This document shows positions 13,919 to 57,854 of a stretch of 64,000 nt of DNA, piece after piece; the first letter of the stretch is position 1, and each line of letters begins with the position of its first letter. The position numbers were made by a program, and so were the translations under genes. Below the pieces are notes generated by a model. That model had not been told where the DNA came from. It did not search any database and was given only the letters and a program-made list of their open reading frames with translations. This DNA comes from Owenia fusiformis (lineage: Eukaryota > Annelida > Polychaeta > Sabellida > Oweniidae), in contig CAIIXF020000010.1 of assembly GCA_903813345.2 (NCBI GenBank), positions 496,001-560,000 of the forward strand, in the 5' to 3' direction.

Positions 13919-14110
13919 CGTCAACTCTTCTTAGAGGAGACATGACAATAAGAAAACGAAAAGAAATCTGTCACTCACTCGAACATTGTGATATACATCC
14001 AATCTGTTCGAAGTCGAATCCACTTGATTTATCAACTTCTATCAGTTCATATCATGCATCAACTAATCTATTACTTCTATGAATGTTCATCTCTCTGGTA
14101 GTAATGTACT

Positions 14111-14174
14111 ATTAACAAAGTTGTTGATTTTAAAATAAATATCTCTGAGAAAGAAAATCAACAACTTTGTTAAT
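14111..14174. repeat. Perfect 21-bp hairpin
   Basis: ATTAACAAAGTTGTTGATTT(T) at 14111-14131 is perfectly inverted at 14154-14174, with a 22-nt loop. Confidence 0.85.
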
Positions 14175-15866: not shown

Positions 15867-16053
15867 TCAATGATATTATTCCATGCAATGTTATTCAGCT
15901 TAAAATCTTCCCAAATCTGGATTGAGCTCAGCTTAAATACAATTCAAAATTGTCCAACATGATTGAAATTAAAATTATTCCAATTATAGTAAGAACAAAT
16001 CCTATTGTGGTTGAGATTATTCCAAATAAGGGCATAACGGCTCTGGATGGAGT

Positions 16054-25000: not shown

Positions 25001-28000
25001 ACGAAATACCCTAGATAATTCCCGGGGATTCATTCTAAATTTTGGCGAAGATTTATATTGGCGAATTTTTCAATTTCGCCAAATTCGCCAAATTAAAGCG
25101 GGCGCCAAATTAACCCAATCTACAGTATTAGGAATTTCTCAACCTTTAACCAGTGAAAGGGTTTGGGTAAACTTACATTTTTTCTCTTTTCCTCTGCTGC
25201 TTTTCTTGCTTGCTCTTCTTTCTCAGCTATCCTTTCTTTAAGAGGCTTCTTTTTCTTCACTTGAATGGCTTTTGGGGCTAAAATAAAAACATTATAATCT
25301 TGGAATAACATTTATCGAACTAGGAGTCACACAAAAGAACAAACAGAAGGTTAGGTTACATATGGTAGTCATACAGTGCCATTATATCATTTGATTCATA
25401 GGATCATTGAGTGTAAAACCAACTACATGACTGATTGCAGATGCTTTGTGTGTTCTACTGTGCATGGTAAAGTATATATTTACTATAGTACTAGTATATT
25501 GTATAGTATAGGATACAGAAAACAAAAGGTGCTCACAAAAACAGGGCCAAGCGTCTATCACCAAACAACCTAACATTAGAGTTTTATGGCAGAGGGGATT
25601 TCAGAACATCAAAGTGTTCTTTCTTACCATATCAGAGCAATTTAACCGCATCTTGTTTTAATGCATACACATTTCTTTCAGATAAATAAAAATATTGTAT
25701 ATATTTGAGATATTAATACATTTAGTTCTACTTCAAACTGCATCTAGAAACAAGTTGACTTTTAATTACTAACCATCATCTTCTGGTTTTTCTTCATCTT
25801 CATCTTCCCAGCTTGCCTACAATGAAAAATATAAAATATACATTTAAAGATTAAAATATACAATGAAATTACTAATTATACAATGAAAGTATAACACTAC
25901 AAAACGGTTAATTTGAATAAGTGACAAATGATTACTTTGAAAGATGTTTGATAGCATAATATTTGTTGAGTGTTTAGAAAGTAAGTTTTGATCCTATACC
26001 ATATAAGGTTTTACAAGGTTTTATAATGGAGCTACAGTTTTATAGCAAAATCAGATTCTTGTCCACAATACAAGTTTCAATTAACAAATTAATTTCTGAT
26101 CTGGTTCACCTTTACCATCCACCTAATAATCAAAAGGTATTGCTACTAATCAGTATATACAGGTAGTCGCTAATCGAATCATGGCCAATGTTACTTGCAA
26201 ATTGTAAAAAGTCAGTGAAAAGAACACAGTTTCTTGCTATTTTTGACATGACATCAGATCTCATGAAAGAACATCAAAAAATGACAATTTCTGACAGGAT
26301 GGAAGTTAAAAACAAATCTACCCACTACAGGCCCGTAGCCAGTGGGGGAGCTGGGGGAGCGGAAGCTCCTCCCCCCCTGGCCAGAAATTCTTTCAAAATC
26401 ATGCAGTTTTTCACCATTCTGAGAATTTTTCCCATGATTTTTAGCCAAAATTGTGAAAAAGCTCCCCCCCCCTGGTAAAAGCTGGCTATGGGCAAGCACT
26501 ACACTTAGCTAATTGGCAGAGACTGAGTGGTCAACAACTCGTATACAAGAACACAAATGTGTACAATATGTCCCCACCTATGGTTGATCCTGTCAAATGG
26601 TTATCCTAAAAATGAGTAGACAAGACTTTACCGACACAATTTGAGGACGGAGAATCCAAAATGGCCACCTTAAAATTTACCAAGAATGCCAAAAAATTAG
26701 TCTAGATTTTCATACTAAGAACCACCCCTGAAAATTTGAAATTGATCCGTCACACAGTTAACCAGAAAACATGTAAACAAGACTTTACAGACAAGATTTG
26801 AGGACAGAAAATCCAAAATGGCTGCCTTGACATTTATCCAGAATGCCAAAAAATAATCTGTTCTAGATTTTCATACTAAGAATCTTTCCTGAAAATTTGA
26901 AATTGATCTACCAAGCAGTTCACCTAAAAACGCATAAACAAAACTTTAAGATTTTAAGACAGAAAATCCAAAATGGCTGCCTTGACATTTATCCAGAATG
27001 CCAAAAAACTAATCAGATCTAGATTTTCATACTGAGAATCATCCCTGAAAATTTGAAACTGATATACCAAATGGTTCACCTGGAAATGTGTAGACAAGAC
27101 TTTACAGACAAGATTTTAGGACGGAAAATCCAAAATGGCTGCCTTGACATTTACCCAGAATGCCCAAAAACTAATCAGTTCTAGATTCTCATACTAAGAA
27201 TCATCCCTGAAAATTTCAAATTGATCTACAAACGGTTCACCTAAAAACGCGTAGACAAAACTTTAAGATTTTAAGACGGAAAATCCAAAATGGCTGCCTT
27301 GACATTTATCCAGAATGCCAAAAAACTAATCAGATCTAGATTTTCATACTGAGAATCATCCCTGAAAATTTGAAATTGATCTACCAAACGGTTCACCTGA
27401 AAATGCGTAGACAAGACTTTACAGACAAGATTTTAGGACGGAAAATCCAAAATGGCTGCCTTGACATTTACCAAGAAAGCCCAAAAACTAATCAGATCTA
27501 GATTCTCATACTAAGAATCATCCCTGAAAATTTGAAATTGATCTACCAAACGGTTCACCTGAAAACGCGTAGACAAGACTTTACAGACAAGATTTTAGGA
27601 CGGAAAAATCCAAAATGGCCGACAATAAAAAAGTGATTATGAGTTTTTGCTGAAATCTTTTTACAAAATTATCACATATAACTACTGTTAACAATAACCT
27701 AGGCTTTTACAACAAAGTACACCTGAAATTATTTATAAAGCTACTAAAAAGTTAAAGTATGAAAACTGAAAAACACCATTCAATATGATACAAAGTATTA
27801 TCGTGCGCTAACTTTTCTTAAAACATTCAAAATGGCTGACATGACGGAGCTAACAGGTCCAAAACCTAATCAGATCTAGAATGAAGTGAGCTGAACAAGA
27901 TGTTAAAGTTTTAAAAGGAACTGTGAAGCCGTTTTTCTTAAAGTTTGCAGACAAGGATTTTAGCATTTGACTTAAAAATGGCCGACAGGAAGTAGGTATC

Positions 28001-32316: not shown

Positions 32317-33075
32317 CTTGTGAATATGAATCAATCAATGCCACTTGTTGAAATTTGAATAATTTCTGATTTAGAATGAGTGATTTTATTAGCTCTTTGT
32401 ATTTAATTGGATAATTGATATGACGGATATGAAAAACTGAGTTTCGGGTATGCCTCTATGAAGGGCATCATAGCCTATGACATAGGCCCTGGAATGTGTA
32501 TAAACAAATCGAGTTGAATACACCTAAAAGTAACATATGATATAACTAACTCCTTGGATCCCTTTCATGTTCAGTATCCGATTTCTTACACTACAGCTCC
32601 CGGCTTGGATTATTACAGCCCCTAAAACTGAGATACCACATACTACAAAAGATTGAGACGTTCTCAGGACTATAGTCCTGGCACGAGATAACCACGTACT
32701 ACATGTACATGTATTTTTCAATTTTTTGCCAGTTATGGGTCTCATATATGCTTAGAATGTACTGAAGAGGGTCAAGATTCCAAATATTTTCTGGGATCAT
32801 GCCAGACCCCCTTAGCTTGAGGAGTTACACCCTGTAGAAGCTTTGCCAGGGTGTGTCGACGGTGCAATCCATCTGTAAGATTAATATATACGCATCAAAA
32901 GTCCAAGACTGACTCACTCTTGATTACAATAAAGGTAATATAGGAATTATGCACTAGTGTGTATTCTCTGTAGATATTCCACTGTACAGTGTGCAATGTA
33001 AAGGTATGTAAGCAAAGAACATTGATTGTAACTGTGTATTCCAGATATAATATTTAAGAGCAACAGGTAAATGCC

Positions 33076-36000
33076 ATGAGTGGAAGACCAACTTCACGCC
33101 CAAGTGGATCAAGGGGTACCCCAGGAACTGCATGGCAAAAAACAACTGCAAAACCAACCACTGGTGCTAAACCTAAATCTGCTTCTCCAAAAAAGGTTGG
33201 TGTCCAGCTTCTGTAACGGCACAGCAATTGGTGTTTGGTGTCTGTAACAAATTCTTACGGTGTCTGTAACAAATTCTTATGGCATCTGTGACTAATACAT
33301 GGCAGGTGGTGACATTTTGCATGTTAATGCCTTGTTACTTTATTGCTACATGTACATGTTCCACAGAATTATTTTATGAGCATGTGCTTGATTATTTTCA
33401 AGGCTGCAAATAAGGCAGGAACAAGTACTGCATTGGTTCCTAGGAGCAAACAAGGTGCCATAGCAACCAGGAAAGGAATGGCACCTATCCCAATGAAGAA
33501 ACAGGATGGCATGCTTGTACCAGAGGGTGAGGACATACTATGATGTACATTCACTTCATAATACATACATTTACATTTACATAATGAATGTTTATGAATC
33601 AACTGACATAAAGACTATTACCTACATTACATAGGCAATTCATTGCTATAAGATTTTCACAAAATACATGCTAATCCAAGATCAAGAACTAAAACCATTC
33701 CTCCCATCCCATGTTAAAAAATCTTGAATTGTGAAAAACCCCAAATTTTAACAGTGGACAGTCCATGGGCTCTATCATGGGTGGTAAAGCCCACGGACAG
33801 TCTTAATTGGAACATTAATCTCACAAAAATAAACATTTATGAACCCAGACTCTTTGTTTGTTACCTTTTACAGGTTACACTGTGCGTAAGATAGAGCCTG
33901 CCAAGAATTACGACGTAGTGTCATTTGCCCGTGCCATGAATCCGGACTTTGCACCCAGAGTGAAAAAATTGTTTGATCCAGAAAGGGAAGCTGCAATTGC
34001 TGCTCAGAAGTCTGGTAAATCTGTCGACCAAATAAACATTTTGTTGAGTATCATGCAATCATCAGCAATTATTTTCAAATCCTCATTGTGTTCTTGCTGT
34101 TTTTAAAACCATCCAGATTGTATCATTTTTTTTTAAAATTACCTGTTTTTCTCACAATTTCTTGAATGATTTCATATTGTGTGAATATTGAAGACATGTA
34201 CTTTATTTTACAATCATTTTAAATTATTTTTGAAATAACTTGTATTCATATTAATTGTAGGTGTCTACATTGGCTGGAGGTGCCCTGAGTTTACTTGGGA
34301 TTGTCAAAGAGTTAGTTCAATGTCTAAGTGTTTCTGCGGACATCTACTAGGAGAGCACAATTCATACAATGGTAAGTTAAACCATGGGCTTTCAAGAGAG
34401 CTTGAAATACATTATTGATCTTACATGAAAATGTAGTGAAACATTCTACATGGTCAGTATTGGAGACTAAAAGAAAGGAGGTGGGATGGGTATCAGAAAA
34501 CAAGTAAATGAAGGCAAGCCATCATATCACTTATCATACAATTTCTAGTTTATTTGCCAGATAGCTAATTTTATTAAAAACATTCTATGCGTACTTAACC
34601 TTATTTAGAATATCCATTTTACATTACATATACAGTAGTACTATGCAGCATTACATTTTGAATATTATAGGCCATTGTGTTAGAGTCCTCTGCAGACAAC
34701 CAGGCTGTTCCTCTAAAGCATATGTAGCATAACACTTCGATTATTATAGGCCATAGTGTTAGAGTCCCCTGCAAACAACCAGGCTGTTCCTCTAAAGCAT
34801 ACATAACACTTTGATTATTATAGGCCATAGTGTTAGAGTCCCCTGCAGACAACCAGGCTGTTCCTGCAAAGCATATGTAGCATAACATTTTGATTATTAT
34901 AGGCCATAGTGTTAGAGTCCCCTGCAGACAACCAGGCTGTTCCTCTAAAGCATATGTAGCATAACACTTTGATTATTATAGGCCATAGTGTTAGAGTCCC
35001 CTGCAGACAACCAGGCTGTTCCTCTAAAGCATATGTAGCATAACACTTTGATTATTATAGGCCATAATGTTAGATTCCCCTGCAGACAACCAGGCTGTTC
35101 CTCTAAAGCATATGTAGCATAACACTTTGATTATTATTGGCCATAGTGTTAGAGTCCCCTGCAAACAACCAGGCTGTTCCTCTAAAGCATACATAACACT
35201 TTGATTATTATAGGCCATAGTGTTAGAGTCCCCTGCAGACAACCAGGCTGTTCCTCTAAAGCATATGTAGCATAATACTTTGATTATTATTGGCCATAGT
35301 GTTAGAGTCCCCTGCAGACAACCAGGCTGTTCCTCTAAAGCATATGTAGCATAACACTTTGATTATTATAGGCCATAGTGTTAGAGTCCCCTGCAGACAA
35401 CCAGGCTGTTCCTCTAAAGCATATGTAGCATAACACTTTGATTATTATAGGCCATAGTGTTAGAGTCCCCTGCAGACAACCAGGCTGTTCCTGCAAAGCA
35501 TAATATGTAGCTGTAGCATAACACTTTGATTATTATAGGCCATAGTGTTAGATTCCCCTGCAGACAACCAGGCTGTTCCTCTAAAGCATATGTAGCATTA
35601 CACTTTGATTATTATAGGCCATAGTGTTAGAGCCCCCTGCAGACAACCAGGCTGTTCCTCTAAAGCATATGTAGCATAACACTTTGATTATTATAGGCCA
35701 TAGTGTTAGAGTCCCCTGCAGACAACCAGGCTGTTCCTCTAAAGCATATGTAGCATAACACTTTGATTATTATAGGCCATAGTGTTAGAGTCCCCTGCAG
35801 ACAACCAGGCTGTTCCTGCAAAGCATATGTAGCATAACACTTTGATTATTATAGGCCATATTGTTAGAGTCCCCTGCAGACAACCAGGCTGTTCCTCTAA
35901 AGCATATGTAGCATAACACTTTGATTATTATAGGCCATAGTGTTAGATTCCCCTGCAGACAACCAGGCTGTTCCTCTAAAGCATATGTAGCATAACACTT

Positions 36001-39000
36001 TGATTATTATAGGCCATAGTGTTAGAGTCCCCTGCAGACAACCAGGCTGTTCCTCTAAAGCATATGTAGCATTACACTTTGATTATTATAGGCCATAGTG
36101 TTAGAGTCCCCTGCAGACAACCAGGCTGTTCCTCTAAAGCATATGTAGCATAACACTTTGATTATTATAGGCCATAATGTTAGATTCCCCTGCAGACAAC
36201 CAGGCTGTTCCTCTAAAGCATATGTAGCATAACACTTTGATTATTATTGGCCATAGTGTTAGAGTCCCCTGCAAACAACCAGGCTGTTCCTCTAAAGCAT
36301 ACATAACACTTTGATTATTATAGGCCATAGTGTTAGAGTCCCCTGCAGACAACCAGGCTGTTCCTCTAAAGCATATGTAGCATAATACTTTGATTATTAT
36401 TGGCCATAGTGTTAGAGTCCCCTGCAGACAACCAGGCTGTTCCTCTAAAGCATATGTAGCATAACACTTTGATTATTATAGGCCATAGTGTTAGAGTCCC
36501 CTGCAGACAACCAGGCTGTTCCTCTAAAGCATATGTAGCATAACACTTTGATTATTATAGGCCATAGTGTTAGAGTCCCCTGCAAACAACCAGGCTGTTC
36601 CTCTAAAGCATACATAACACTTTGATTATTATAGGCCATAGTGTTAGAGTCCCCTGCAGACAACCAGGCTGTTCCTCTAAAGCATATGTAGCATAATACT
36701 TTGATTATTATTGGCCATAGTGTTAGAGTCCCCTGCAGACAACCAGGCTGTTCCTCTAAAGCATATGTAGCATAACACTTTGATTATTATAGGCCATAGT
36801 GTTAGAGTCCCCTGCAGACAACCAGGCTGTTCCTCTAAAGCATATGTAGCATAACACTTTGATTATTATAGGCCATAGTGTTAGAGTCCCCTGCAGACAA
36901 CCAGGCTGTTCCTGCAAAGCATAATATGTAGCTGTAGCATAACACTTTGATTATTATAGGCCATAGTGTTAGATTCCCCTGCAGACAACCAGGCTGTTCC
37001 TCTAAAGCATATGTAGCATAACACTTTGATTATTATAGGCCATAGTGTTAGAGTCCCCTGCAGACAACCAGGCTGTTCCTCTAAAGCATATGTAGCATTA
37101 CACTTTGATTATTATAGGCCATAGTGTTAGAGTCCCCTGCAGACAACCAGGCTGTTCCTCTAAAGCATATGTAGCATAACACTTTGATTATTATAGGCCA
37201 TAGTGTTAGAGTCCCCTGCAGACAACCAGGCTGTTCCTCTAAAGCATATGTAGCATAACACTTTGATTATTATAGGCCATAGTGTTAGAGTCCCCTGCAG
37301 ACAACCAGGCTGTTCCTCTAAAGCATATGTAGCATAACACTTTGATTATTATAGGCCATATTGTTAGAGTCCCCTGCAGACAACCAGGCTGTTCCTCTAA
37401 AGCATATGTAGCATAACACTTTGATTATTATAGGCCATAGTGTTAGAGTCCCCTGCAGACAACCAAGCTGTTCCTCTAAAGCATATCTAGCATAACACTT
37501 TGATTATTATAGGCCATATTGTTAGAGTCCCCTGCAGACAACCAGGCTGTTCCTCTAAAGCATATGTAGCATAACACTTTGATTATTATAGGCCATAGTG
37601 TTAGAGTCCCCTGCAGACAACCAGGCTGTTCCTCTAAAGCATATGTAGCATAACACTTTGATTATTATAGGCCATTGTGTTAGAGTCCCCTGCAGACAAC
37701 CAGGCTGTTCCTGCAAAGCATAATATGTAGCTGTAGCATTACACTTTGATTATTATAGGCCATAGTGTTAGATTCCCCTGCAGACAACCAGGCTGTTCCT
37801 CTAAAGCATATGTAGCATAACACTTTTATTATTATAGGCCATAGTGTTAGAGTCCCCTGCAGACAACCAAGCTGTTCCTGCAAAGCATATGTAGCTTAAC
37901 ACTTTGATTATTATAGGCCATAGTGTTAGAGTCCCCTGCAGAAAACCAGGCTGTTCCTCTAAAGCATATGTAGCATAACACTTTGATTATTATAGGCCAT
38001 AGTGTTAGAGTCCCCTGCAGACAACCAGGCTGTTCCTCTAAAGCATATGTAGCATTACACTTTGATTATTATAGGCCATAGTGTTAGAGCCCCCTGCAGA
38101 CAACCAGGCTGTTCCTCTAAAGCATATGTAGCATAACACTTTGATTATTATAGGCCATAGTGTTAGAGTCCCCTGCAGACAACCAGGCTGTTCCTCTAAA
38201 GCATATGTAGCATAACACTTTGATTATTATAGGCCATAGTGTTAGAGTCCCCTGCAGACAACCAGGCTGTTCCTGCAAAGCATAATATGTAGCTGTAGCA
38301 TTACACTTTGATTATTATAGGCCATAGTGTTAGATTCCCCTGCAGACAACCAGGCTGTTCCTCTAAAGCATATGTAGCATAACATTTTGATTATTATAGG
38401 CCATTGTGTTAGAGTCCCCTGCAGACAACCAGGCTGTTCCTGCAAAGCATATCTAGCATAACACTTTGATTATTATAGGCCATATTGTTAGAGTCCCCTG
38501 CAGACAACCAGGCTGTTCCTCTAAAGCATATGTAGCATAACACTTTGATTATTATAGGCCATAGTGTTAGAGTCCCCTGCAGACAACCAGGCTGTTCCTC
38601 TAAAGCATATGTAGCATAACACTTTGATTATTATAGGCCATAGTGTTAGAGTCCCCTGCAGACAACCAAGCTGTTCCTCTAAAGCATATGTAGCATAACA
38701 CTTTGATTATTATAGGCCATAGTGTTAGAGTCCCCTGCAGACAACCAGGCTGTTCCTGCAAAGCATATGTAGCATAACACTTTGATTATTATAGGCCATA
38801 GTGTTAGAGTCCCCTGCAGATAACCAGGCTGTTCCTCTAAAGCATATGTAGCATAACACTTTGATTATTATAGGCCATAGTGTTAGAGTCCCCTGCAGAC
38901 AACCATGCTGTTCCTCTAAAGCATATGTAGCATAACACTTTGATTATTATAGGCCATAGTGTTAGAGTCCCCTGCAGACAACCAGGCTGTTCCTCTAAAG

Positions 39001-42000
39001 CATATGTAGCATAACACTTTGATTATTATAGGCCATAGTGTTAGAGTCCCCTGCAGACAACCAGGCTGTTCCTCTAAAGCATATGTAGCATAACACTTTG
39101 ATTATTATAGGCCATAGTGTTAGAGTCCCCTGCAGACAACCAGGCTGTTCCTCTAAAGCATATGTAGCATAACACTTTGATTATTATAGGCCATAGTGTT
39201 AGAGTCCCCTGCAGACAACCAGGCTGTTCCTCTAAAGCATATGTAGCATAACACTTTGATTATTATAGGCCATAGTGTTAGAGTCCCCTGCAGACAACCA
39301 GGCTGTTCCTCTAAAGCATATGTAGCATTACACTTTGATTATTATAGGCCATAGTGTTAGAGTCCCCTGCAGACAACCAGGCTGTTCCTCTAAAGCATAT
39401 GTAGCATTACACTTTGATTATTATAGGCCATAGTGTTAGAGTCCCCTGCAGACAACCAGGCTGTTCCTCTAAAGCATATGTAGCATAACACTTTGATTAT
39501 TATAGGCCATAATGTTAGAGTCCCCTGCAGACAACCAGGCTGTTCCTGCAAAGCATAATATGTAGCTGTAGCATAACACTTTGATTATTATAGGCCATAT
39601 TGTTAGAGTCCCCTGCAGACAACCAGGCTGTTCCTCTAAAGCATATGTAGCATTACACTTTGATTATTATAGGCCATAGTGTTAGATTCCCCTGCAGACA
39701 ACCAGGCTGTTCCTCTAAAGCATATGTAGCATTACACTTTGATTATTATAGGCCATAGTGTTAGAGTCCCCTGCAGACAACCAGGCTGTTCCTCTAAAGC
39801 ATATGTAGCATTACACTTTGATTATTATAGGCCATAGTGTTAGAGTCCCCTGCAGACAACCAGGCTGTTCCTCTAAAGCATATGTAGCATAACACTTTGA
39901 TTATTATAGGCCATAATGTTAGAGTCCCCTGCAGACAACCAGGCTGTTCCTGCAAAGCATAATATGTAGCTGTAGCATAACACTTTGATTATTATAGGCC
40001 ATATTGTTAGAGTCCCCTGCAGACAACCAGGCTGTTCCTCTAAAGCAAATGTAGCATAACACTTTGATTATTATAGGCCATAGTGTTAGAGTCCCCTGCA
40101 GACAACCAGGCTGTTCCTCTAAAGCATATGTAGCATAATACTTTGATTATTATTGGCCATAGTGTTAGAGTCCCCTGCAGACAACCAGGCTGTTCCTCTA
40201 AAGCATATGTAGCATAACACTTTGATTATTATAGGCCATAGTGTTAGAGTCCCCTGCAGACAACCAGGCTGTTCCTCTAAAGCAAATGTAGCATAACACT
40301 TTGATTATTATAGGCCATAGTGTTAGAGTCCCCTGCAGACAACCAGGCTGTTCCTCTAAAGCATATGTAGCATAATACTTTGATTATTATTGGCCATAGT
40401 GTTAGAGTCCCCTGCAGACAACCAGGCTGTTCCTCTAAAGCATATGTAGCATTACACTTTGATTATTATAGGCCATAGTGTTAGAGTCCCCTGCAGACAA
40501 CCAGGCTGTTCCTCTAAAGCATATGTAGCATAACACTTTGATTATTATAGGCCATAGTGTTAGAGTCCCCTGCAGACAACCAGGCTGTTCCTGCAAAGCA
40601 TATCTAGCATAACACTTTGATTATTATAGGCCATATTGTTAGAGTCCCCTGCAGACAACCAAGCTGTTCCTCTAAAGCATATGTAGCATAACACTTTGAT
40701 TATTATAGGCCATAGTGTTAGAGTCCCCTGCAGACAACCAGGCTGTTCCTGCAAAGCATATCTAGCATAACACTTTGATTATTATAGGCCATATTGTTAG
40801 AGTCCCCTGCAGACAACCAAGCTGTTCCTCTAAAGCATATGTAGCATAACACTTTGATTATTATAGGCCATATTGTTAGAGTCCCCTGCAGACAACCAAG
40901 CTGTTCCTCTAAAGCATATGTAGCATAACACTTTGATTATTATAGGCCATAGTGGTAGAGTCCCCTGCAGACAACCAGGCTGTTCCTCTAAAGCATATGT
41001 AGCATAACACTTTGATTATTATAGGCCATTGTGTTAGAGTCCCCTGCAGACAACCAGGCTGTTCCTGCAAAGCATATGTAGCATAACACTTTGACTATTA
41101 TAGGCCATAGTGTTAGAGTCCCCTGCAGACAACCAGGCTGTTCCTCTAAAGCATATGTAGCATAACACTTTGATTATTATAGGCCATAGTGTTAGATTCC
41201 CCTGCAGACAACCAGGCTGTTCCTCTAAAGCATATGTAGCATTACACTTTGATTATTATAGGCCATAGTGTTAGAGTCCCCTGCAGACAACCAGGCTGTT
41301 CCTCTAAAGCATATGTAGCATTACACTTTGATTATTATAGGCCATAGTGTTAGAGTCCCCTGCAGACAACCAGGCTGTTCCTCTAAAGCATATGTAGCAT
41401 AACACTTTGATTATTATAGGCCATAGTGTTAGAGTCCCCTGCAGACAACCAGGCTGTTCCTGCAAAGCATAATATGTAGCTGTAGCATAACACTTTGATT
41501 ATTATAGGCCATAGTGTTAGAGCCCCCTGCAGACAACCAGGCTGTTCCTCTAAAGCATATGTAGCATAACACTTTGATTATTATAGGCCATAGTGTTAGA
41601 GTCCCCTGCAGACAACCAGGCTGTTCCTGCAAAGCATAATATGTAGCTGTAGCATTACACTTTGATTATTATAGGCCATAGTGTTAGATTCCCCTGCAGA
41701 CAACCAGGCTGTTCCTCTAAAGCATATGTAGCATTACACTTTGATTATTATAGGCCATAGTGTTAGAGTCCCCTGCAGACAACCAGGCTGTTCCTCTAAA
41801 GCATATGTAGCATAACACTTTGATTATTATAGGCCATAGTGTTAGAGTCCCCTGCAGACAACCAGGCTGTTCCTCTAAAGCATATGTAGCATAACACTTT
41901 GATTATTATAGGCCATAGTGTTAGAGTCCCCTGCAGACAACCAGGCTGTTCCTCTAAAGCATATGTAGCATAACACTTTGATTATTATAGGCCATAGTGT

Positions 42001-45000
42001 TAGAGTCCCCTGCAGACAACCAGGCTGTTCCTCTAAAGCATATGTAGCATTACACTTTGATTATTATAGGCCATAGTGTTAGAGTCCCCTGCAGACAACC
42101 AGGCTGTTCCTCTAAAGCATATGTAGCATAACATTTTGATTATTATAGGCCATAGTGTTAGAGTCCCCTGCAGACAACCAGGCTGTTCCTCTAAAGCATA
42201 TGTAGCATTACACTTTGATTATTATAGGCCATAGTGTTAGAGTCCCCTGCAGACAACCAGGCTGTTCCTCTAAAGCATATGTAGCATAACACTTTGATTA
42301 TTATAGGCCATAGTGTTAGAGTCCCCTGCAGACAACCAGGCTGTTCCTGCAAAGCATATCTAGCATAACACTTTGATTATTATAGGCCATATTGTTAGAG
42401 TCCCCTGCAGACAACCAAGCTGTTCCTCTAAAGCATATGTAGCATAACACTTTGATTATTATAGGCCATAGTGTTAGAGTCCCCTGCAGACAACCAGGCT
42501 GTTCCTGCAAAGCATATCTAGCATAACACTTTGATTATTATAGGCCATATTGTTAGAGTCCCCTGCAGACAACCAAGCTGTTCCTCTAAAGCATATGTAG
42601 CATAACACTTTGATTATTATAGGCCATAGTGTTAGAGTCCCCTGCAAACAACCAGGCTGTTCCTCTAAAGCATATGTAGCATAACACTTTGATTATTATA
42701 GACCATAGTGTTAGAGTCCCCTGCAGACAACCAGGCTGTTCCTCTAAAGCATATGTAGCATTACACTTTGATTATTATAGGCCATAGTGTTAGAGTCCCC
42801 TGCAGACAACCAGGCTGTTCCTCTAAAGCATATGTAGCATAACACTTTGATTATTATAGGCCATAGTGTTAGAGTCCCCTGCAGACAACCAGGCTGTTCC
42901 TCTAAAGCATATGTAGCATAACACTTTGATTATTATAGGCCATAGTGTTAGAGTCCCCTGCAGACAACCAGGCTGTTCCTCTAAAGCATATGTAGCATAA
43001 CACTTTGATTATTATAGGCCATAGTGTTAGAGTCCCCTGCAGACAACCAGGCTGTTCCTCTAAAGCATATGTAGCATAACACTTTGATTATTATAGGCCA
43101 TAATGTTAGATTCCCCTGCAGACAACCAGGCTGTTCCTCTAAAGCATATGTAGCATAACACTTTGATTATTATAGGCCATAGTGTTAGAGTCCCCTGCAG
43201 ACAACCAAGCTGTTCCTCTAAAGCATATGTAGCATAACACTTTGATTATTATAGGCCATAATGTTAGATTCCCCTGCAGACAACCAAGCTGTTCCTCTAA
43301 AGCATATGTAGCATAACACTTTGATTATTATAGGCCATAGTGTTAGAGTCCCCTGCAGACAACCAGGCTGTTCCTGCAAAGCATATCTAGCATAACACTT
43401 TGATTATTATAGGCCATAGTGTTAGAGTCCCCTGCAGACAACCAGGCTGTTCCTCTAAAGCATATGTAGCATAACACTTTGATTATTATAGGCCATAGTG
43501 TTAGAGTCCCCTGCAGACAACCAGGCTGTTCCTGCAAAGCATATCTAGCATAACACTTTGATTATTATAGGCCATAGTGTTAGAGTCCCCTGCAGACAAC
43601 CAGGCTGTTCCTCTAAAGCATATGTAGCATAACACTTTGATTATTATAGGCCATAGTGTTAGAGTCCCCTGCAGACAACCAGGCTGTTCCTCTAAAGCAT
43701 ATCTAGCATAACACTTTGATTATTATAGGCCATAGTGTTAGAGTCCCCTGCAGACAACCAGGCTGTTCCTCTAAAGCATATGTAGCATAATACTTTGATT
43801 ATTATAGGCCATAGTGTTAGAGTCCCCTGCAGATAACCAGGCTGTTCCTCTAAAGCATATGTAGCATAACACTTTGATTATTATAGGCCATAGTGTTAGA
43901 GTCCCCTGCAGACAACCAGGCTGTTCCTGCAAAGCATAATATGTAGCTGTAGCATAACACTTTGATTATTATAGGCCATATTGTTAGAGTCCCCTGCAGA
44001 CAACCAGGCTGTTCCTCTAAAGCAAATGTAGCATAACACTTTGATTATTATAGGCCATAGTGTTAGAGTCCCCTGCAGATAACCAGGCTGTTCCTCTAAA
44101 GCATATGTAGCATAACACTTTGATTATTATAGGCCATAGTGTTAGAGTCCCCTGCAGACAACCAGGCTGTTCTTGCAAAGCATAATATGTAGCTGTAGCA
44201 TAACACTTTGATTATTATAGGCCATATTGTTAGAGTCCCCTGCAGACAACCAGGCTGTTCCTCTAAAGCAAATGTAGCATAACACTTTGATTATTATAGG
44301 CCATAGTGTTAGAGTCCCCTGCAGACAACCAGGCTGTTCCTCTAAAGCATATGTAGCATAACACTTTGATTATTATAGGCCATAGTGTTAGAGTCCCCTG
44401 CAGACAACCAGGCTGTTCCTCTAAAGCATATCTAGCATAACACTTTGATTATTATAGGCCATAGTGTTAGAGTCCCCTGCAGACAACCAGGCTGTTCCTC
44501 TAAAGCATATGTAGCATAACACTTTGATTATTATAGGCCATAGTGTTAGAGTCCCCTGCAGACAACCAGGCTGTTCCTGCAAAGCATATCTAGCATAACA
44601 CTTTGATTATTATAGGCCATATTGTTAGAGTCCCCTGCAGACAACCAAGCTGTTCCTGCAAAGCATATGTAGCTTAACACTTTGATTATTATAGGCCATA
44701 GTGTTAGAGTCCCCTGCAGAAAACCAGGCTGTTCCTCTAAAGCATATGTAGCATAACACTTTGATTATTATAGGCCATATTGTTAGAGTCCCCTGCAGAC
44801 AACCAGGCTGTTCCTCTAAAGCATATGTAGCATTACACTTTGATTATTATAGGCCATATTGTTAGAGTCCCCTGCAGACAACCAGGCTGTTCCTGCAAAG
44901 CATATGTAGCATAACACTTTGATTATTATAGGCCATAGTGTTAGAGTCCCCTGCAGACAACCAGGCTGTTCCTCTAAAGCATATGTAGCATAACACTTTG

Positions 45001-48000
45001 ATTATTATAGGCCATAGTGTTAGAGTCCCCTGCAGACAACCAGGCTGTTCCTCTAAAGCATATGTAGCATTACACTTTGATTATTATAGGCCATAGTGTT
45101 AGAGTCCCCTGCAGACAACCAGGCTGTTCCTGCAAAGCATATCTAGCATAACACTTTGATTATTATAGGCCATAGTGTTAGAGTCCCCTGCAGACAACCA
45201 GGCTGTTCCTCTAAAGCATATGTAGCATAACACTTTGATTATTATAGGCCATAGTGTTAGAGTCCCCTGCAGACAACCAGGCTGTTCCTCTAAAGCATAT
45301 GTAGCATAACACTTTGATTATTATAGGCCATAGTGTTAGAGTCCCCTGCAGACAACCAGGCTGTTCCTCTAAAGCATATGTAGCATAACACTTTGATTAT
45401 TATTGGCCATAGTGTTAGAGTCCCCTGCAGACAACCAGGCTGTTCCTGCAAAGCATATCTAGCATAACACTTTGATTATTATAGGCCATAGTGTTAGAGT
45501 CCCCTGCAGACAACCAGGCTGTTCCTCTAAAGCATATGTAGCATAACACTTTGATTATTATAGGCCATAGTGTTAGAGTCCCCTGCAGACAACCAGGCTG
45601 TTCCTCTAAAGCATATGTAGCATAACACTTTGATTATTATAGGCCATATTGTTAGAGTCCCCTGCAGACAACCAGGCTGTTCCTCTAAAGCATATGTAGC
45701 ATAACACTTTGATTATTATAGGCCATAGTGTTAGATTCCCCTGCAGACAACCAGGCTGTTCCTGCAAAGCATATCTAGCATAACACTTTGATTATTATAG
45801 GCCATAATGTTAGAGTCCCCTGCAGACAACCAGGCTGTTCCTGCAAAGCATAATATGTAGCTGTAGCATAACACTTTGATTATTATAGGCCATATTGTTA
45901 GAGTCCCCTGCAGACAACCAAGCTGTTCCTCTAAAGCATATGTAGCATAACACTTTGATTATTATAGGCCATAGTGTTAGAGTCCCCTGCAGACAACCAG
46001 GCTGTTCCTGCAAAGCATATCTAGCATAACACTTTGATTATTATAGGCCATAGTGTTAGAGTCCCCTGCAGACAACCAGGCTGTTCCTCTAAAGCATATG
46101 TAGCATAACACTTTGATTATTATAGGCCATATTGTTAGAGTCCCCTGCAGACAACCAGGCTGTTCCTCTAAAGCATATGTAGCATAACACTTTGATTATT
46201 ATTGGCCATAGTGTTAGAGTCCCCTGCAGACAACCAGGCTGTTCCTCTAAAGCATATGTAGCATAACACTTTGATTATTATAGGCCATATTGTTAGAGTC
46301 CCCTGCAGACAACCAGGCTGTTCCTCTAAAGCATATGTAGCATAACACTTTGATTATTATAGGCCATAGTGTTAGAGTCCCCTGCAGACAACCAGGCTGT
46401 TCCTCTAAAGCATATGTAGCATAACACTTTGATTATTATAGGCCATAGTGTTAGAGTCCCCTGCAGACAACCAGGCTGTTCCTCTAAAGCATATGTAGCA
46501 TAATACTTTGATTATTATTGGCCATAGTGTTAGAGTCCCCTGCAGACAACCAGGCTGTTCCTCTAAAGCATATGTAGCATAACACTTTGATTATTATAGG
46601 CCATATTGTTAGAGTCCCCTGCAGACAACCAGGCTGTTCCTGCAAAGCATATGTAGCATAACACTTTGATTATTATAGGCCATAGTGTTAGAGTCCCCTG
46701 CAGACAACCAGGCTGTTCCTCTAAAGCATATGTAGCATTACACTTTGATTATTATAGGCCATATTGTTAGAGTCCCCTGCAGACAACCAAGCTGTTCCTC
46801 TAAAGCATATGTAGCATAACACTTTGATTATTATAGGCCATAGTGTTAGAGTCCCCTGCAGACAACCAGGCTGTTCCTCTAAAGCATATGTAGCATAACA
46901 CTTTGATTATTATAGGCCATAGTGGTAGAGTCCCCTGCAGACAACCAGGCTGTTCCTCTAAAGCATATGTAGCATTACACTTTGATTATTATAGGCCATA
47001 GTGTTAGAGTCCCCTGCAGACAACCAGGCTGTTCCTCTAAAGCATATGTAGCATAACACTTTGATTATTATAGGCCATAGTGTTAGAGTCCCCTGCAGAC
47101 AACCAGGCTGTTCCTCTAAAGCATATGTAGCATTACACTTTGATTATTATAGGCCATAGTGTTAGAGTCCCCTGCAGACAACCAGGCTGTTCCTCTAAAG
47201 CATATGTAGCATAACACTTTGATTATTATATGCCATAGTGTTAGAGTCCCCTGCAGACAACCAGGCTGTTCCTCTAAAGCATATGTAGCATTACACTTTG
47301 ATTATTATAGGCCATAGTGTTAGAGTCCCCTGCAGACAACCAGGCTGTTCCTCTAAAGCATATGTAGCATAACACTTTGATTATTATAGGCCATAGTGTT
47401 AGAGTCCCCTGCAGACAACCAGGCTGTTCCTGCAAAGCATTTGCCTGGATTCCTTCTAGACCAGAGGAAATAGGAGAGTTCTGGTTTGCAAGGAGAAGAG
47501 ACTTTGATCCTGAGGCCTGGAGGGCTAAATGTAGATGTAAGCACACACATGAGGACCATGATCCAAATGGTATGAGGAGGTGCAAAATGAGAGGTGAGTA
47601 ATGGTATGGTGTATGAGGAGGTGAAAAATGAGAGGTACATGTTTATTGTATTGTAAGGAGGAGGTGTAAAATAAGGTGCATGTTCATGAATTTTTATGCA
47701 GAATCTAAAAATGAGAGATGTTGATGCTTATTTAATGTTATTGAGGTTATGGGAGGTAGATATTTACATTGTATTATTAGATGGCTTTGATCATGTAGAT
47801 CTCTGTTTGAAAAACATGGTACTTATTGTAAAGCAAGTTTTCAGTACAACATTATTAAATCAGTCCTATATTTTGAATACACATACAGTACATTTACAGT
47901 AACGTACATGTAAATCTGACAACTAACAAACTTGTTGTAGGTTGTGGGTGCAGTGTCTTTGACTCTCCATTCTTGTGTGCTGCATGTGACCAACATTGGG

Positions 48001-49261
48001 AAGTTCATGAAACATTTTTTGAAACTGAGTCAATGAGGCGAGACAAGGGACTACCCTATGGTATGTTGTAATAATATTGATTTTGACAAATGACTACCAT
48101 ATGGTATGTTGTAATAATATTGATTTTGACAAATGACTACCCTATGGTATGTTGTAATAATATTGATTGTGACAAAGGACTACCATATGTTATGTTTTAA
48201 TAATATTGATTTTGACAATGATCTACCATATCATTATGTTATGTTGCAATATTATTGAATGTGACAAAGGACTACCATAATGGTATGTTGTAAAAATATA
48301 TTTTGACAAATGGCTACCATATGGTATATTTTAGTTCAGAGGGGGAGAAACACCAGGGTTCAAAGATGACATACGCTTATAATGTAAATCTGTATTGAGA
48401 TGACATCGTCGCTGATTGGTCAAAAGTCGACAAACAAATGACGTCATCAATGGCGGTTTCAAAGTTTTCGAAATACGCTTCGAATAATATTATGTTAATT
48501 TCTGGCGTGTTAACCAATATCATAGCTTCTCATTACACATCAAGATAAAGAAAGGTGTACGGAATATGCCTATATCAATAAAACATCCCATCGAAGTGTA
48601 GTTTTGATAAATAGCCGATGAAAATTCGAACGAACGAAGGTGGTAAGCAAGAGACGTAATTATGTCTGTCATCTTTAAACTCCTCTTGTTTTAGTTACAT
48701 TGAATGTTGTTGTATTATTGATTTCGACAAATGACTACCATATGGTATGTTGTAATAATATTGATTGTGACAAATGGCTACTATATGGTATGTTGTTATA
48801 ATATTGATTGTGACAAAGGACTGCCTTATGGTATGTTGTAATTATAATGTTGACTGTAACAAAGGACTATTATATGGTATGTTGTAATTATAATGATGAC
48901 TGTAACAATGGACTGTCGTAATCAAATTGATTGTGACAAAGGACTCTATATAGGGTACTCTATATTGTTACATGTACTTTGTATAATAATATTGTAGATT
49001 TACATGCATTGTAAATTGTATATGTTCCCTGTACCTCCAGGTGAGGAGTACTTACCATTCCACGAGATGCCAGAATTACGCAACATTGTCCTAACAGGGG
49101 AGGAGACTGATGATTCTGTGTACCGTGCCCTGACTGAGGGGGAGGGTGCTATACCACATACCAATGTTAGGGCCATTGCTGATAATAATACACCATTCTC
49201 ATTTGGAGGAGGGGGAAGGGGTGGTGGGAGATCAGGAGGATTTAGACCAACTTATGATTAG
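33076..49261 (+). CDS. FAM221B: FAM221B-like cysteine-rich protein, seven coding exons
   Basis: Coding exons: 33076-33195, 33403-33526, 33874-34014, 34261-34371, 47390-47593, 47941-48060, 49041-49261. Phases agree throughout (1041 nt, 346 aa). Residues 1-80 are a low-complexity Ser/Pro/Lys/Thr region. The conserved part starts at EGYTVRKIEPAKNYDVVSFA and continues through YIGWRCPEFTWDCQR, CFCGHLLGEHN, VPCRQPGCSCKAF, IPSRPEEIGEFWF, CRCKHTHEDHDP and FLCAACDQHWEVHETFFETE, matching the FAM221B family. The Cys/His clusters look like metal-binding knuckles. The C-terminus is Gly/Arg-rich (GGGGRGGGRSGGF), unlike the vertebrate protein as I know it. The family's function is not established; human FAM221B is testis-biased. 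Intron 4 (13.0 kb) is nearly all satellite derived from exon 5's own acceptor junction, and intron 6 holds repeats of exon 6's donor junction. The start is the first in-frame ATG; upstream UTR exons cannot be excluded. Confidence 0.93.
34643..47389 (+). repeat. 79-bp satellite array in FAM221B intron 4, built from the exon 5 acceptor junction
   Basis: Unbroken head-to-tail array. Each unit reads about 30 bp ending in TTTGATTATTATAG, then about 49 bp beginning GCCATAGTGTTAGAGTCCCC and running to AAAGCAT. The same junction, in register, is the true acceptor and first codons of exon 5 (AG at 47388-47389; then GHSVRVPCRQPGCSCKA with the G from exon 4). The first AG/GCC junction is at 34670/34671 and the real one at 47389/47390, 12,719 bp apart. 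By eye there are 11 long units (88 bp, AATATGTAGCTGTAGC variant) and 4 short units (74 bp), which gives 160 monomers. Most units change TCC TGC to TCC TCT, and all reach an in-frame TAA (GTA GCA TAA) a few codons later. Open frames read from the minus strand are artefacts of the repeat. Confidence 0.95.
48043..48336 (+). repeat. 43-bp tandem repeats copying the exon 6 donor junction, left block
   Basis: The exon 6 end GACAAGGGACTACCCTATG, the donor GTATGT and the following TTGTAATAATATTGATTTT recur immediately at 43-bp spacing (GTATGT at 48061 and 48104, and onward) for about six to seven increasingly diverged units. Each unit is about 19 bp of exon 6 plus 24 bp of intron 6. The first unit is the real splice junction. 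The block is interrupted at 48337 by a hAT-like insertion. Confidence 0.88.
48337..48688. mobile_element. hAT-like non-autonomous element splitting the intron 6 repeat array
   Basis: A 352-bp non-repeat block is flanked by identical 8-bp copies of TTTTAGTT (48329-48336 and 48689-48696). Its ends are CAGAGGGGGAG and, inverted, CAAGAGGAGTT, resembling hAT termini; the inverted match is imperfect. No coding sequence. Confidence 0.55.
48697..48960 (+). repeat. 43-bp donor-junction repeats, right block
   Basis: The same unit resumes after the insertion: GATTTCGACAAATGACTACC, ATATGGTATGTTGTAATAA and variants, about five to six copies, more diverged than the left block (TTATAATG and CTATATAG changes). 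It fades before the acceptor of exon 7 at 49040. Confidence 0.8.
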
Positions 49262-49683
49262 TGACTAGCAGGGGGTCTCTTAGAGTTTCCTGAATTCTGT
49301 CTGCCTTAAGTTAAGGAGGCTCTTATTCTAATATACCCCCTCCCCCTTCTTCCTTAGTATGTCCTCTTTCAAGGAGATATATTGGAAGAAGAGACAGAAC
49401 TGAAGATAATACAGGAACAAACACAATAGATTATGATTGTCCACTAAGATGCACAATTTGCTACCATATTATTGCGGCCTGCCTTTATTCTAGAAAGGAA
49501 TCTCAGGACAGCGTCGACTGGCAAATGATTAAATACCTAATAAGCTAAGAACAAAATGAGATGGTCATTTTGTGATTTAATTGGGCATGAAATGTTTGTA
49601 TCTGTATATAGTAGGAAAAAGGACTATTCTCGGTTCGGAGAACAAAGTTCATCACTCTAAATGAGCGTTACCCCTGTTTCGGA

Positions 49684-51188
49684 CAAAGGATGGGTATCGA
49701 TATGGTGAACTTTCTGAACACACGTTTCTCTTAAACCAGGCATAAAAAATCTGAAAATTTTACACATTGTCAATTAAATGGTCATCTTTTGAATGTAATG
49801 GTAACAATATAATTTGAAATAAATATATTTTTCTCTATATTGTTTTAGAAAACACATCAGGCACCTCTTTGGTTCTTGGTATCATACTCGGTATCATAGG
49901 CTAAGGGTTAAGTAATAGTAAGCTGTATACAGAAGAGACAGGTGAACAACTAGGATTTAGGCCACTTGTTAACATGGTGATTTTAACATTATTTGTGTAT
50001 AATTTGCAAAAAACAATGCAGAGTTGATCCAAAATTGATAGTTCTCAATTCTTACCTATGAATCAACCACATTCAAGTGATATAGAGTGAATAAAGCCGT
50101 CTTGAGGTGAGATATTCTGAAAACCTACAATTGCCTGGCAAGTTACCCGGATTTCCGTGTTGAATCATGAATGGAAGTTTGAAACAAGGAATTTGATTGG
50201 TTCCTGCTAACCGCCGCCAGTGACACCTATCTGGTTCTCTAAAATGTAATTCATTTTCTAGAAATAACAATCAATTAAAGTGTATAAAACTATAAAAGGT
50301 TTACTTAATAATTATTTATCAAAACATCTGATTCATATAATATCTTTTTAAACCCAATTTAAATGGTGAAATTTCAATCTTTCCATGTGTCCGGAAGTTT
50401 CAACTTGCCGGGCAATTGCAGGTTCGTACAGTTGGTGTTTTTTATGCTGTCTTATCGAAGAGTTAGGATATAGATTTGAAATATTCAACAATCTACGTTT
50501 CGAAAACACTTTGGAGAAGATTCTTGGGAGATTTGGTGGTACGACTCGATACCAGTAAGGAGAACTCGTACCAAGACGGCAAGTTTTTGAAAAAATTTTC
50601 AATCCTAATTGTTTACCTGTCTCTTCTATATACAGCTTACTATTACTTAACCCTTAGCCTATGCTCGGTATCATATGTTCGGAATGAAATGAAACATCTA
50701 TCCGAACCTCATTGGAACAAAATGACATAAACACAACGCGGTTAAGTCTTTCAATATTGTAATTGTACAAAGGAAAGTTTGGTTGATATAAAAAAGTATC
50801 TTGTTAATGAAATAAAAGGTTTATCTTAATTTTATCTATTTTACAGATTTTTGAATACTTTTTCTCAAATCAACCAAAATTGCCTTTGTATTAACTATAA
50901 TATTGAGACGTCTAAGAAAATGTTGTATGTGCTATTTTGTTCCAATAAGCTTCGGAAAGATATTTTATTTCATTCTCAAGAATTGGTAAAAAGGAACAAA
51001 AAACGATTGCACTAGAAAACAAAAATGTTAACAAAAACAGTTATATAAAATATTTATAAATTATTTTCGCATTAAATTGTTGTCAACATTACATAAAGGA
51101 CCGTGTTTTTTTACAGAATGTTTTCAATACTTGGTTTAAGAGAAAAACATTGTTGAATTCAGTTCTCCATATCGATACCAATCCTTTG
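49684..51188. mobile_element. Foldback element, second copy, with a nested insertion
   Basis: Ends CAAAGGATGGGTATCGATAT and, inverted, CAAAGGATTGGTATCGATAT. It shares long blocks with the 18.3-kb element (AACATCTATCCGAACCTCAT, AAAAGTATCTTGTTAATGAA) on both arms. It is interrupted by the element at 49895-50663. No host target duplication seen. Lies downstream of the FAM221B stop. Confidence 0.65.
49895..50663. mobile_element. CATAGGCTAAGGG element nested in a foldback element
   Basis: A 769-bp insertion with terminal inverted repeats of about 35 bp (CATAGGCTAAGGGTTAAGTA at the left, inverted at the right), flanked by an exact 8-bp duplication CTCGGTAT (49887-49894, 50664-50671). The 8-bp duplication and CA start suggest a hAT-type element. 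The arms extend further inward as imperfect inverted sequence (TTGCCTGGCAAG with CTTGCCGGGCAA). Confidence 0.8.
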
Positions 51189-55534: not shown

Positions 55535-57854
55535 TCATGTGCTATCAATAGGAATACCATCAAGTGGACAAGTTGTGGAAGAATATGTGAGCCACTGATC
55601 AATGCATGTTTCATGAAATACATGACCACATGGTAAATATTTCCTACACTGTCCTACAAGGTAGAACTCCATGCATACTGCACAAGGATCTTCTAGAATG
55701 TCATGTTCATGAACAGCTTCAACTCTCAGTGAGCTAAGTGCCAGTGTATTAACAGTTTTAGGTTTGCATAGATCATCAAGGTTAAGCAGCAGGTCAAAGT
55801 CTTCTGGAGTGATCTCCCTGTGCTGTAGGTTTATAAAGGCACTCACAACAGTAGTGTCAAAACTTGAGAATTCTTTAGGGGCACTTGTCGTATTGAGTAA
55901 AGTATGAACTTGAGCAGTTCTATAGTTTTTGGTAGGGGTGTACACTCGGGGTGTTTTTGGGCTGCTTATTTTGTCAATTGTTGCATCAATCTTATTTTTA
56001 CAGGAAACTGCAGCTTCTGAGTGTTTGTATTTTAATATTGGTTGGAATTGATCATTAGCTCTTGAAAGTCTAAGGCAGATAAGTTTATACACTCTGTGGT
56101 GCATAAACAGTTTTGATCTGTTATGTATTGAATTATGGATTTTTCTGCATTGTTTTTGCTTTATTTGTTTCTTTGCACTCTGCACCTTTCTGCCCTTGTC
56201 CTTCCTTAAATAGTCTCTGTTCCCCTTTGAACCATGGATTTGATGATGTTCAAATTGTCCATATGTAGTTTCATATGATTCAAGTTCTTCATCATAATGA
56301 GCCATTATTTCAGCAATTTCTTGCGTTTTCCAAGGATGTTCATCATCAACCCCAATTTTTCTGTTTACTTCAGAATTGTCATATTTGATATTAAGAAGAT
56401 GGTTTGCAGGTTTCCATTTCTTATTCTTACTTTTATCAGTATTTGATTTTATACTTGATGTGGTACTGGTGTGGGAAGTCACTGTATGAAGCTCTTTACT
56501 CTTCAGATCATTGGGTATTTTTTGTGTCTCTTTGGTAAGATGGATGTCATTACAAGTTTCTCTTTCAGTAGAGTAGTTCTAAAATATAAAATGAGTAATA
56601 TACGGTAATTACAATTTAATTTTGAACAATTATCTGCCTTATCAAATACATTGGAGATTCTATATGAAGCACCTACTAACTTATACTAATAGTACTTACT
56701 AATACTAGGTATTTTGAAATACATGTAGATTTGAAAAAGAAGAAAAGATGGTTTTAGTCAATTTTGTATTATTTGATAATAACAGCTCTGTGAAATTGAA
56801 AATTCAACCACCCCCCCCCCCCCTTAGGTGCGGCCATGCTAGTGATCATAGGCCAAGAGAAAAGTACTATTGAGCTCAATATTGAGGTCATCTATATTGA
56901 CCTATACAGTACTTTTCCCTTGGCCTATGCTAGCGACTAAACGTGTATATGAACTGACTTGTATACTATGACCATGGACTGGAAATACATGTAAGCTCAC
57001 ACAATGAACTTTACACAAAAAAAGTGCAAAGTGCACAAAACAAAAATGATATCCATGGGCGTAGCGCTATAAGTAATACGCCACCACGGGAACAAGAGTT
57101 GAGCGAAGCAAAAACGAGCGTTTAGAGGAGTCTGGGGGGGTCCTAGTTCAACAAGTTAAACCCAAAACCACGGCTTTCATTTATTAATCTGAATGTTCTT
57201 GTTGCCGTGGTTGGGTTTAACTTCCATGCTATGCTTTCATTTGTTGCAAATTCTCACTATCAGTTATTAATTAAACGCGCATGGAATTTCATGCGCTACC
57301 ATAGGCCACCATTAAATCTTTTGCATCAAGGGCCGAATAGGCACGGACGTTAAACCCAGGGCGGGCCACAAGATATGTCAGATAAGAAATAAGGCCCAGA
57401 CTAGGTTTAACTTGTTGAACTAGGGGGGTCCCCCCTAGGAAAATTTTGAAATTTGCTTGTATTTGGAGCGAATTTGCAATCATCTAGTACGCCTGTGCAT
57501 ACCCAGCGTACCGGGCGCTACGCCTATGATATCATAGATCAAATGCTAAAATCACTGAAAGACCTGATGAGACAATAGCGCCATAAGACATTAGAGCGCC
57601 AGAAGAATGTCAACAACAACAACATGCAAGTCAAATAACATCAATCTTACCATTTTGACACTATCCAGCTCTCCAGTTTTCATTTCATTCCTTCGTTTGA
57701 TATGTTCCCTGACTAGAACAGCAAAACTTCTCCCCAAATCTTCATATGGTGACACAGGATACAAATGTCTTGGCACCTCAAACTCCATTTCTGGGGTTGA
57801 ACCACCTGTGAGTTGCGATGTAGAAGTATTGACACACAACGAAGTAGTTGCCAT
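55535..57854 (-). CDS. RING-H2 finger protein, two coding exons (presumptive E3 ubiquitin ligase)
   Basis: Exon 1 is 57854-57651 (68 aa, ATG start, ends on a whole codon before GTAAGA). Exon 2 is 56578-55535 after a TTTTAG acceptor, so the protein is 415 aa. Exon 1 encodes PRHLYPVSPYEDLGRSFAVL and a basic helix. The middle is Lys/Ser-rich with no domain I recognise. A C-terminal RING lies at about residues 367-410: CAVC, then LPCGHVFHETC, IDQWL and CPLD. The pattern is C-x2-C ... C-x-H-x2-H-x2-C ... C-P-x-D. The eighth ligand is Asp rather than Cys, as in RBX1, so zinc binding is still plausible. The RING suggests E2-dependent ubiquitin transfer; the substrate is unknown. I could not assign a named orthologue. 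Intron 1 (57650-56579) carries an 83-bp MITE and a pair of nested MITEs. The gene is divergent to NSA2. Confidence 0.85.
56847..56929. mobile_element. 83-bp mini-derivative of the CATAGGCC family (RING gene intron 1)
   Basis: CATAGGCCAAGAGAAAAGTA at the left pairs with TACTTTTCCCTTGGCCTATG at the right. Flanks CTAGTGAT and CTAGCGAC agree at six of eight positions, consistent with an old 8-bp duplication. Confidence 0.65.
57053..57525. mobile_element. GGGCGTAGCGC MITE hosting a second MITE (RING gene intron 1)
   Basis: GGGCGTAGCGC at the left is inverted as GCGCTACGCC at the right, flanked by ATGATAT on both sides (57046-57052, 57526-57532). About 190 bp remain after removing the nested element. 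It ends 125 bp before the donor of exon 1. Confidence 0.6.
57143..57423. mobile_element. Nested MITE with CTAGTTCAACAAGTTAAACC ends
   Basis: A 20-bp terminal inverted repeat (CTAGTTCAACAAGTTAAACC and its inverse) bounds 281 bp inside the GGGCGTAGCGC element. The termini are CTAG, so the duplication may be TA or CTAG. A second inner inverted pair (AACCACGGC with GCCGTGGTT) is present. Confidence 0.65.

Follow-up and report, generated by a model that had tools for sequence, protein, structure and literature searches.

A junction-anchored minisatellite in FAM221

A FAM221 gene of the polychaete Owenia fusiformis contains a 43-bp minisatellite that starts 19 bp inside exon 6, runs into intron 6 and multiplies the exon end together with its donor, so that eight donors with the same nine-mer lie in one intron. 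The array is quite probably a nearly neutral, junction-anchored minisatellite whose first unit would be used through exon definition, both the absence of a function and the choice of donor being read from sequence.

The gene lies on the plus strand of contig C10 of the 498-Mb genome, within the window, i.e., the whole 64,000-nt stretch of DNA analysed. Seven exons, modelled on the open frame, splice consensus and Pfam, join into a single 346-residue open frame, with intron phase 0 after exon 1 and phase 1 after exons 2 to 6:

33076-33195, + strand, exon 1 (open frame, splice consensus, Pfam)
33403-33526, + strand, exon 2 (same basis)
33874-34014, + strand, exon 3 (same basis)
34261-34371, + strand, exon 4 (same basis)
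47390-47593, + strand, exon 5; the final unit of a 79-bp array supplies its acceptor and opening bases
47941-48060, + strand, exon 6, 120 bp, ending in phase 1
49041-49261, + strand, terminal exon 7, coding portion (joined open frame)

The PF14753 match of the product scores 84.1 bits against a curated cut-off of 25 (E 1.3e-23), which identifies it as a FAM221 member, and the best stretch of this match, residues 210-287, includes the exon 6/7 junction at codon 274. The claim that the first repeat unit is the true junction is upheld; it forms the conserved coding junction, across which the Pfam match runs. The exon 7 acceptor had been given as 49040, which is the last base of its AG (49039-49040), while exon 7 itself starts at 49041. 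No Rfam family reached its gathering cut-off anywhere in 33000-50000. Elsewhere in the window, a 315-aa open frame with a RING-finger-like motif at its end, as seen by eye, occupies 55535-56482 on the minus strand. Mouse Fam221b is reportedly among 30 testis-enriched genes dispensable for male fertility (PMC6735960), and this dispensability, although in a distant animal, would be in keeping with a gene in which a degree of mis-splicing does little harm.

The minisatellite extends over 48042-48932 and continues faintly to about 48960. Exon 6 closes with GACAAGGGACTACCCTATG (48042-48060), and GTATGTTG, the donor, follows from 48061. Tandem Repeats Finder (TRF) called the array in two stretches: 48042-48327, with 6.5 copies and a score of 369, and 48704-48897, with 4.4 copies and a score of 228. 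Twelve units can be aligned, and by eye a weaker one carries on to about 48960. The main features are as follows:

48042-48084, + strand, repeat unit 1: 19 bp of exon 6, GTATGT and 18 further bases of intron 6; the true junction
48042-48336, + strand, first array block, units 1-7 (TRF and unit alignments)
48697-48932, + strand, second array block, tail of unit 7 and units 8-12 (TRF and unit alignments)
48061-48066, + strand, true donor GTATGT, unit 1
48104-48109, + strand, decoy donor GTATGT, unit 2
48147-48152, + strand, decoy donor GTATGT, unit 3
48283-48288, + strand, decoy donor GTATGT, unit 6
48745-48750, + strand, decoy donor GTATGT, unit 8
48788-48793, + strand, decoy donor GTATGT, unit 9
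48831-48836, + strand, decoy donor GTATGT, unit 10
48877-48882, + strand, decoy donor GTATGT, unit 11, nearest the acceptor, with which a 164-nt intron would remain
48069-48071, + strand, TAA met by transcripts spliced from any downstream donor or retaining the intron (translations)
48337-48688, strand not assigned, 352-bp MITE, with the target-site repeat TTTTAGTT at 48329-48336 and 48689-48696
34642-47440, + strand, 79-bp array of 161 copies, which multiplies the exon 5 acceptor (TRF)

TRF and base-by-base alignment both find the end of exon 6 within the repeat, as the earlier note had proposed. Unit 2 is identical to unit 1 at 16/19 exonic and 24/24 intronic bases, and its three differences turn AAG GGA CTA CCC into AAA TGA CTA CCA, with an in-frame TGA at the position of GGA. 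The array begins inside exon 6, because the 24 bases to the left of unit 1 agree with its intronic half at only 5/24 and the similarity stops sharply at 48042. Two details of the earlier description had to be given up. The string ACTACC(A/C)TATG/GTATGT, said to be kept in each unit, is complete only in 4 of the 12 (units 1, 2, 3 and 8), while the shorter ATG/GTATGT is present in eight and lost from units 4, 5, 7 and 12; and the array is not one continuous run, since 48337-48688 is a MITE insert. Chance does not explain the repetition: 47900-49100 contains the motif ATGGTATGT eight times, while 1000 dinucleotide shuffles of it never contained more than 1 (mean 0.048), whereas GTATGT alone (8 occurrences) reached up to 6 in shuffles of the same region; TRF at score 50 returned five rows from 200 shuffles, compared with the scores of 369 and 228 for the real arrays. 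Searching the 498-Mb genome with 48043-48327 at the DNA level, in a search that skips very common words, recovered this locus only, twice.

Donor strength and predicted transcripts

Eight units carry the same nine-mer from -3 to +6 and the same pairing energy with an assumed U1 snRNA 5′ end, and several of them could thus act as donors, as had been suggested. The comparison of donor scores along the array, which the earlier note had proposed as a check, gave -5.3 kcal/mol for each of the eight intact donors, while with the same U1 end the exon 3, exon 4 and exon 5 donors gave -5.3, -9.1 and -12.4, respectively. As all eight pair with U1 equally and only modestly, no donor is clearly favoured. 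Between the first base of exon 6 and the exon 7 acceptor there are 86 GTs, and apart from these eight none combines a 7/9 consensus match with -5.3, the next best being 48384 (7/9, -1.6) and 48555 (6/9, -5.2).

Extension of exon 6 past its phase-1 end reads GGT ATG TTG TAA, and the seven downstream donors would consequently give one identical truncated protein, ...DKGLPYGML*, whatever their offset modulo 3, which is 70 residues short of the normal product (111 vs 181, counted from exon 5). Use of unit 2 would indeed add 43 nt and shift the frame, but the shift was rejected as what decides the outcome and is irrelevant, because the TAA just past the junction, at 48069-48071, comes earlier and stops every extension. 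From this stop to the new exon junction there would be 32 nt with unit 2 and 75-805 nt with units 3, 6 and 8-11. In mammals, a stop more than about 50 nt before a junction marks an mRNA for decay, a rule that may not hold in this animal; under it, the mRNAs made with units 3, 6 and 8-11 would be decay candidates. As for the first step of donor choice, it has been reported that, at alternative 5′ sites, U1 could occupy both even when one is used (PMC5861446), and on account of this double occupancy all eight FAM221 donors may be U1-bound at first. A possible in-frame cassette exon of 93 nt is also present at 48695-48787; it is open in frame and may be due to chance, and its candidate acceptor would consist of the MITE end and target-site repeat, with unit 9 as the donor.

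The MITE inside the array

The insert that splits the array is short, present in high copy number, flanked by target-site repeats and provided with inverted ends, as is characteristic of MITEs. A genome search yielded 2157 candidates, of which 40 were scored, and the 39 scored copies besides this one match 345-346 bases at about 97-98%; 29 re-aligned copies show 96.8-97.7% identity. Direct repeats of at least 8 bp flank 27 of the 29 copies with recognisable ends among 30 fetched, this one included, when the ends are allowed to slide by 1-2 bases; two of the loci, L022 and L025, have flanks in common and could represent a single insertion. The inverted subterminal stretch was matched in 0/500 shuffles. 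Target-site repeats of 8-9 bp presumably fit the hAT or Mutator-like superfamily. When the MITE and one target-site copy are removed, unit 7 becomes a 39-bp unit in register, with a score of 48 vs 43 with the MITE, and the array is thus older than the MITE, as unit 7 continues in register once the insert is taken out. The insertion itself is fairly recent.

A second array on the exon 5 acceptor

The 79-mer that multiplies the exon 5 acceptor looks unrelated to the 43-mer by eye. ATAG|GCCAT is found in 149 of its copies, and splicing to the upstream acceptors would cut the protein to 174-193 residues in at least 135 of the 149, all of the 135 listed being truncating. The acceptor is conserved to about the same degree as the other columns of the unit, with ATAGG ranking 44th among 75 five-column windows; the acceptor A is kept in 93.8% and the G in 99.4% of the 161 units. 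Other arrays of the window, with reading frames near them, lie around 2500-9500 and 12500-18000, and 162-bp satellite arrays lie at 26594-27619 and 29082-30238; a 162-bp array of similar consensus is present on another contig (L062), on the opposite strand by eye.

Origin of the copies and constraint

A FAM221 paralogue on the minus strand of the same contig (G000:C10:30363764-30365597, at 30.36 Mb) is without an intron at the intron 6 position and carries a like motif, ETKEEREKRGHPVG against ETESMRRDKGLPYG, in a frame that runs straight on. Protein conservation across the junction and this intronless paralogue indicate that the exon 6 end is ancestral and that the intronic units are copies of it. 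Over the 12 units, exonic columns are conserved at 90.5% and intronic columns at 89.9%; with the two equally conserved, the copies are not read as protein, and coding selection on them was rejected on these values together with the TGA in unit 2. Within the unit, conservation peaks at the donor nine-mer (95.4% vs 88.8% elsewhere), and 2 of 35 nine-column windows, the donor core included, reach 95.4%, which is a weak hint of constraint.

The minisatellite probably arose from a tandem duplication spanning the boundary between exon 6 and intron 6, which would be nearly neutral as long as the exon-side copy is chosen and the normal mRNA remains available, and the array could subsequently have grown by unequal exchange or slippage. 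Coding selection would hold unit 1, while the other units would drift and homogenise among themselves. Unit 1 would most likely be picked via exon definition, as it gives the normal 120-nt exon 6, and the downstream donors would be decoys that yield, at most, low-level truncated or decay-prone transcripts. Some points stand against this reading: the donor nine-mer shows its weak hint of constraint, the modest and equal U1 pairing favours no site, and seven decoys of equal strength remain unpurged, although purging might be expected if they were costly.

Junction-straddling arrays elsewhere in the genome

The frequency of such arrays was estimated with TRF in 96 matched exons of the same genome (86 kinase and 10 RRM exons), a small sample picked mostly for small frames, with the edges of matches taken as proxies for those of exons; many of the large kinase matches are single exons with partly coding flanks, and some exons belong to one gene or to related genes. 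Straddling arrays were found at 4 of the 96 exons, on five junctions, and one more exon has an array that abuts its donor. These cases, with gene labels read from the translations, are:

G000:C10:27469618-27470515, minus strand, MEK-like (L080): donor in an array of 54 bp x 3.9
G000:C5:69071-70127, PAK-like (L106): acceptor array of 86 bp x 3.8 (4 acceptors)
the same PAK-like locus, second array: donor array of 71 bp x 2.0 (2 donors)
CDKL-like kinase exon (L118): acceptor array of 51 bp x 4.8
hnRNP R/Q-like RRM exon (L135): 54-bp two-copy array over the acceptor
G000:C11, around 19329697-19330146, minus strand, LATS-like (L056): 23-bp array of 35 units, starting exactly at the donor

By eye, the unit on the exon side forms the true junction in every straddling or abutting case. 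At the PAK-like locus, use of the second donor or of any of the three upstream acceptors would run into a stop, as would use of any of the four upstream acceptors of the CDKL-like exon. The LATS-like array holds 12 exact copies of GTAAGTAAT. The unit-2 donor of the MEK-like gene would add 18 in-frame residues (VSIGSLANSFIGTRSYMS) in the activation segment.

At TRF score 50, arrays were present in 8 of the first 36 kinase loci with small flanks (L080, L084, L085, L088, L091, L092, L098 and L104) and absent from the other 28. Arrays scoring at least 100 occur in 17 of the 86 kinase loci and overlap the match in only three of these 17, where four arrays cross its edge and all straddle a splice junction by eye; none lies wholly within a kinase match in the 86 loci. 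One strong array (L098) ends short of the acceptor, and another (L115) begins about 50 bp outside the kinase match. In raw values, arrays of score at least 100 cover 0.8% of the 33,522 bp inside kinase matches, 3.1% of the first 50 bp beyond them (0-50 bp) and 3.5-4.8% of the sequence at 50 to 350 bp. Exon edges are therefore not hot spots, since coverage is not raised there relative to further out, and the idea that junctions attract arrays was rejected on the same values. Arrays are rare in exons and are tolerated up to and across their edges. As they are no denser beside exon matches, a neutral origin is the simplest reading, in which arrays would arise along introns and the straddling ones would survive because the exon-side copy still works.

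Alternative explanations

The same donors might instead serve regulated unproductive splicing, in which the decoys compete with unit 1 and the length of the array tunes the dose of FAM221. Such a role would account for eight donors whose nine-mer and U1 pairing are unmatched among the 86 GTs, for the stop shared by all decoys, which lies 75-805 nt before the junction with units 3, 6 and 8-11, and for the donor core as the best conserved window. The conservation of that core is weak, however, and in the kinase sample the flanks hold arrays just as densely as the exon edges do, and we regard this role as unlikely. Extended to the genome, the proposal would be that straddling minisatellites, found at about 4% of exons in the small sample and on donors as well as acceptors, form a recurrent class of length-variable rheostats feeding unproductive splicing, the MEK-like case adding an in-frame 18-residue copy of activation-segment sequence; this wider form seems rather improbable.

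Selection against decoys, by which harmful extra donors are eroded, has a trace in the LATS-like array, where, of the 23 columns, conservation is lowest at the +1 G (15/35 units, with C in 11, A in 8 and T in 1) and the next lowest column stands at 17/35. One column of one array is thin, and few events may have been amplified, and the FAM221 arrays point the other way, the donor array keeping its +1 G in 10/12 units and the 79-mer its acceptor A and G in 93.8% and 99.4% of 161. Such erosion is consequently considered very unlikely.

The repeats of human IFI6 are reportedly 12 bp long and in frame, and their downstream donors are said to be used. A comparable generator of isoforms in FAM221, with downstream donors yielding real protein variants, is scarcely credible: the in-frame extended isoforms said to arise in IFI6 have no counterpart, since TAA ends all seven extensions, and the array cannot diversify the protein because all downstream donors give the same truncated product. 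Diversified C-termini were accordingly excluded by the TAA at 48069-48071. What the two do share is anatomy, as the IFI6 (6-16) minisatellite is reported to provide multiple splice donors (Turri, Cuin and Porter 1995, NAR 23:1854).

A chance intronic repeat that accidentally resembles the exon end, or an assembly error, had nothing in its favour and can be dismissed almost entirely, given that units 1 and 2 match in register (16/19 and 24/24 bases), that the genome search, which skips very common words, recovered a single locus, and that the units are not simple assembler copies because they differ from one another and one holds the MITE.

Relation to known systems

The human IFI6 minisatellite is the closest precedent for the FAM221 array. 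In both, a tandem repeat at an exon end repeats the donor and sets donors in series; the FAM221 array starts from inside the exon, so that each round of repetition takes in the exon end as well as the donor. The FAM221 array differs in its 43-bp unit, its immediate stop, its splitting by a MITE and the second array on an acceptor of the same gene. In human duplicated genes, minisatellites at exon-intron boundaries able to change splicing have been described, as in FAM221, but there the repeats are variable and tied to new introns in recent paralogues (PMC2812944), whereas in FAM221 the copies of an old junction fill the intron that belongs to it. For Drosophila (PMC2891723) and potato (PMC4974935), introns have been reported to arise when exon sequence containing a proto-splice site is duplicated in tandem, which resembles the present case in that a tandem duplication involves splice signals. 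Unlike these, the FAM221 unit holds an existing donor, stops before exon 7 and makes no new intron. No repeat units were found at the start of exon 7 by TRF and a unit search of 47900-49100, the units ending before the acceptor, and intron gain by tandem duplication fails as an explanation, as the two intron ends are not both copies of one exonic stretch. An earthworm metallothionein gene has intronic minisatellites, with no placement relative to junctions in the passages shown (PMC12783039). Among the titles listed in a literature search mostly outside subscription papers, none was a survey of arrays of this kind across an invertebrate genome.

Significance

The FAM221 array amounts to a natural duplicated-donor experiment, with eight donors of identical sequence in one intron, for which the predictions differ: exon definition would favour unit 1 and the 120-nt exon, while closeness to the acceptor would favour unit 11 and the 164-nt intron. 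Moreover, with similar arrays on several junctions, the choice among identical splice sites could be studied at many natural loci of this genome, and gene models may be wrong at the junctions that bear such arrays.
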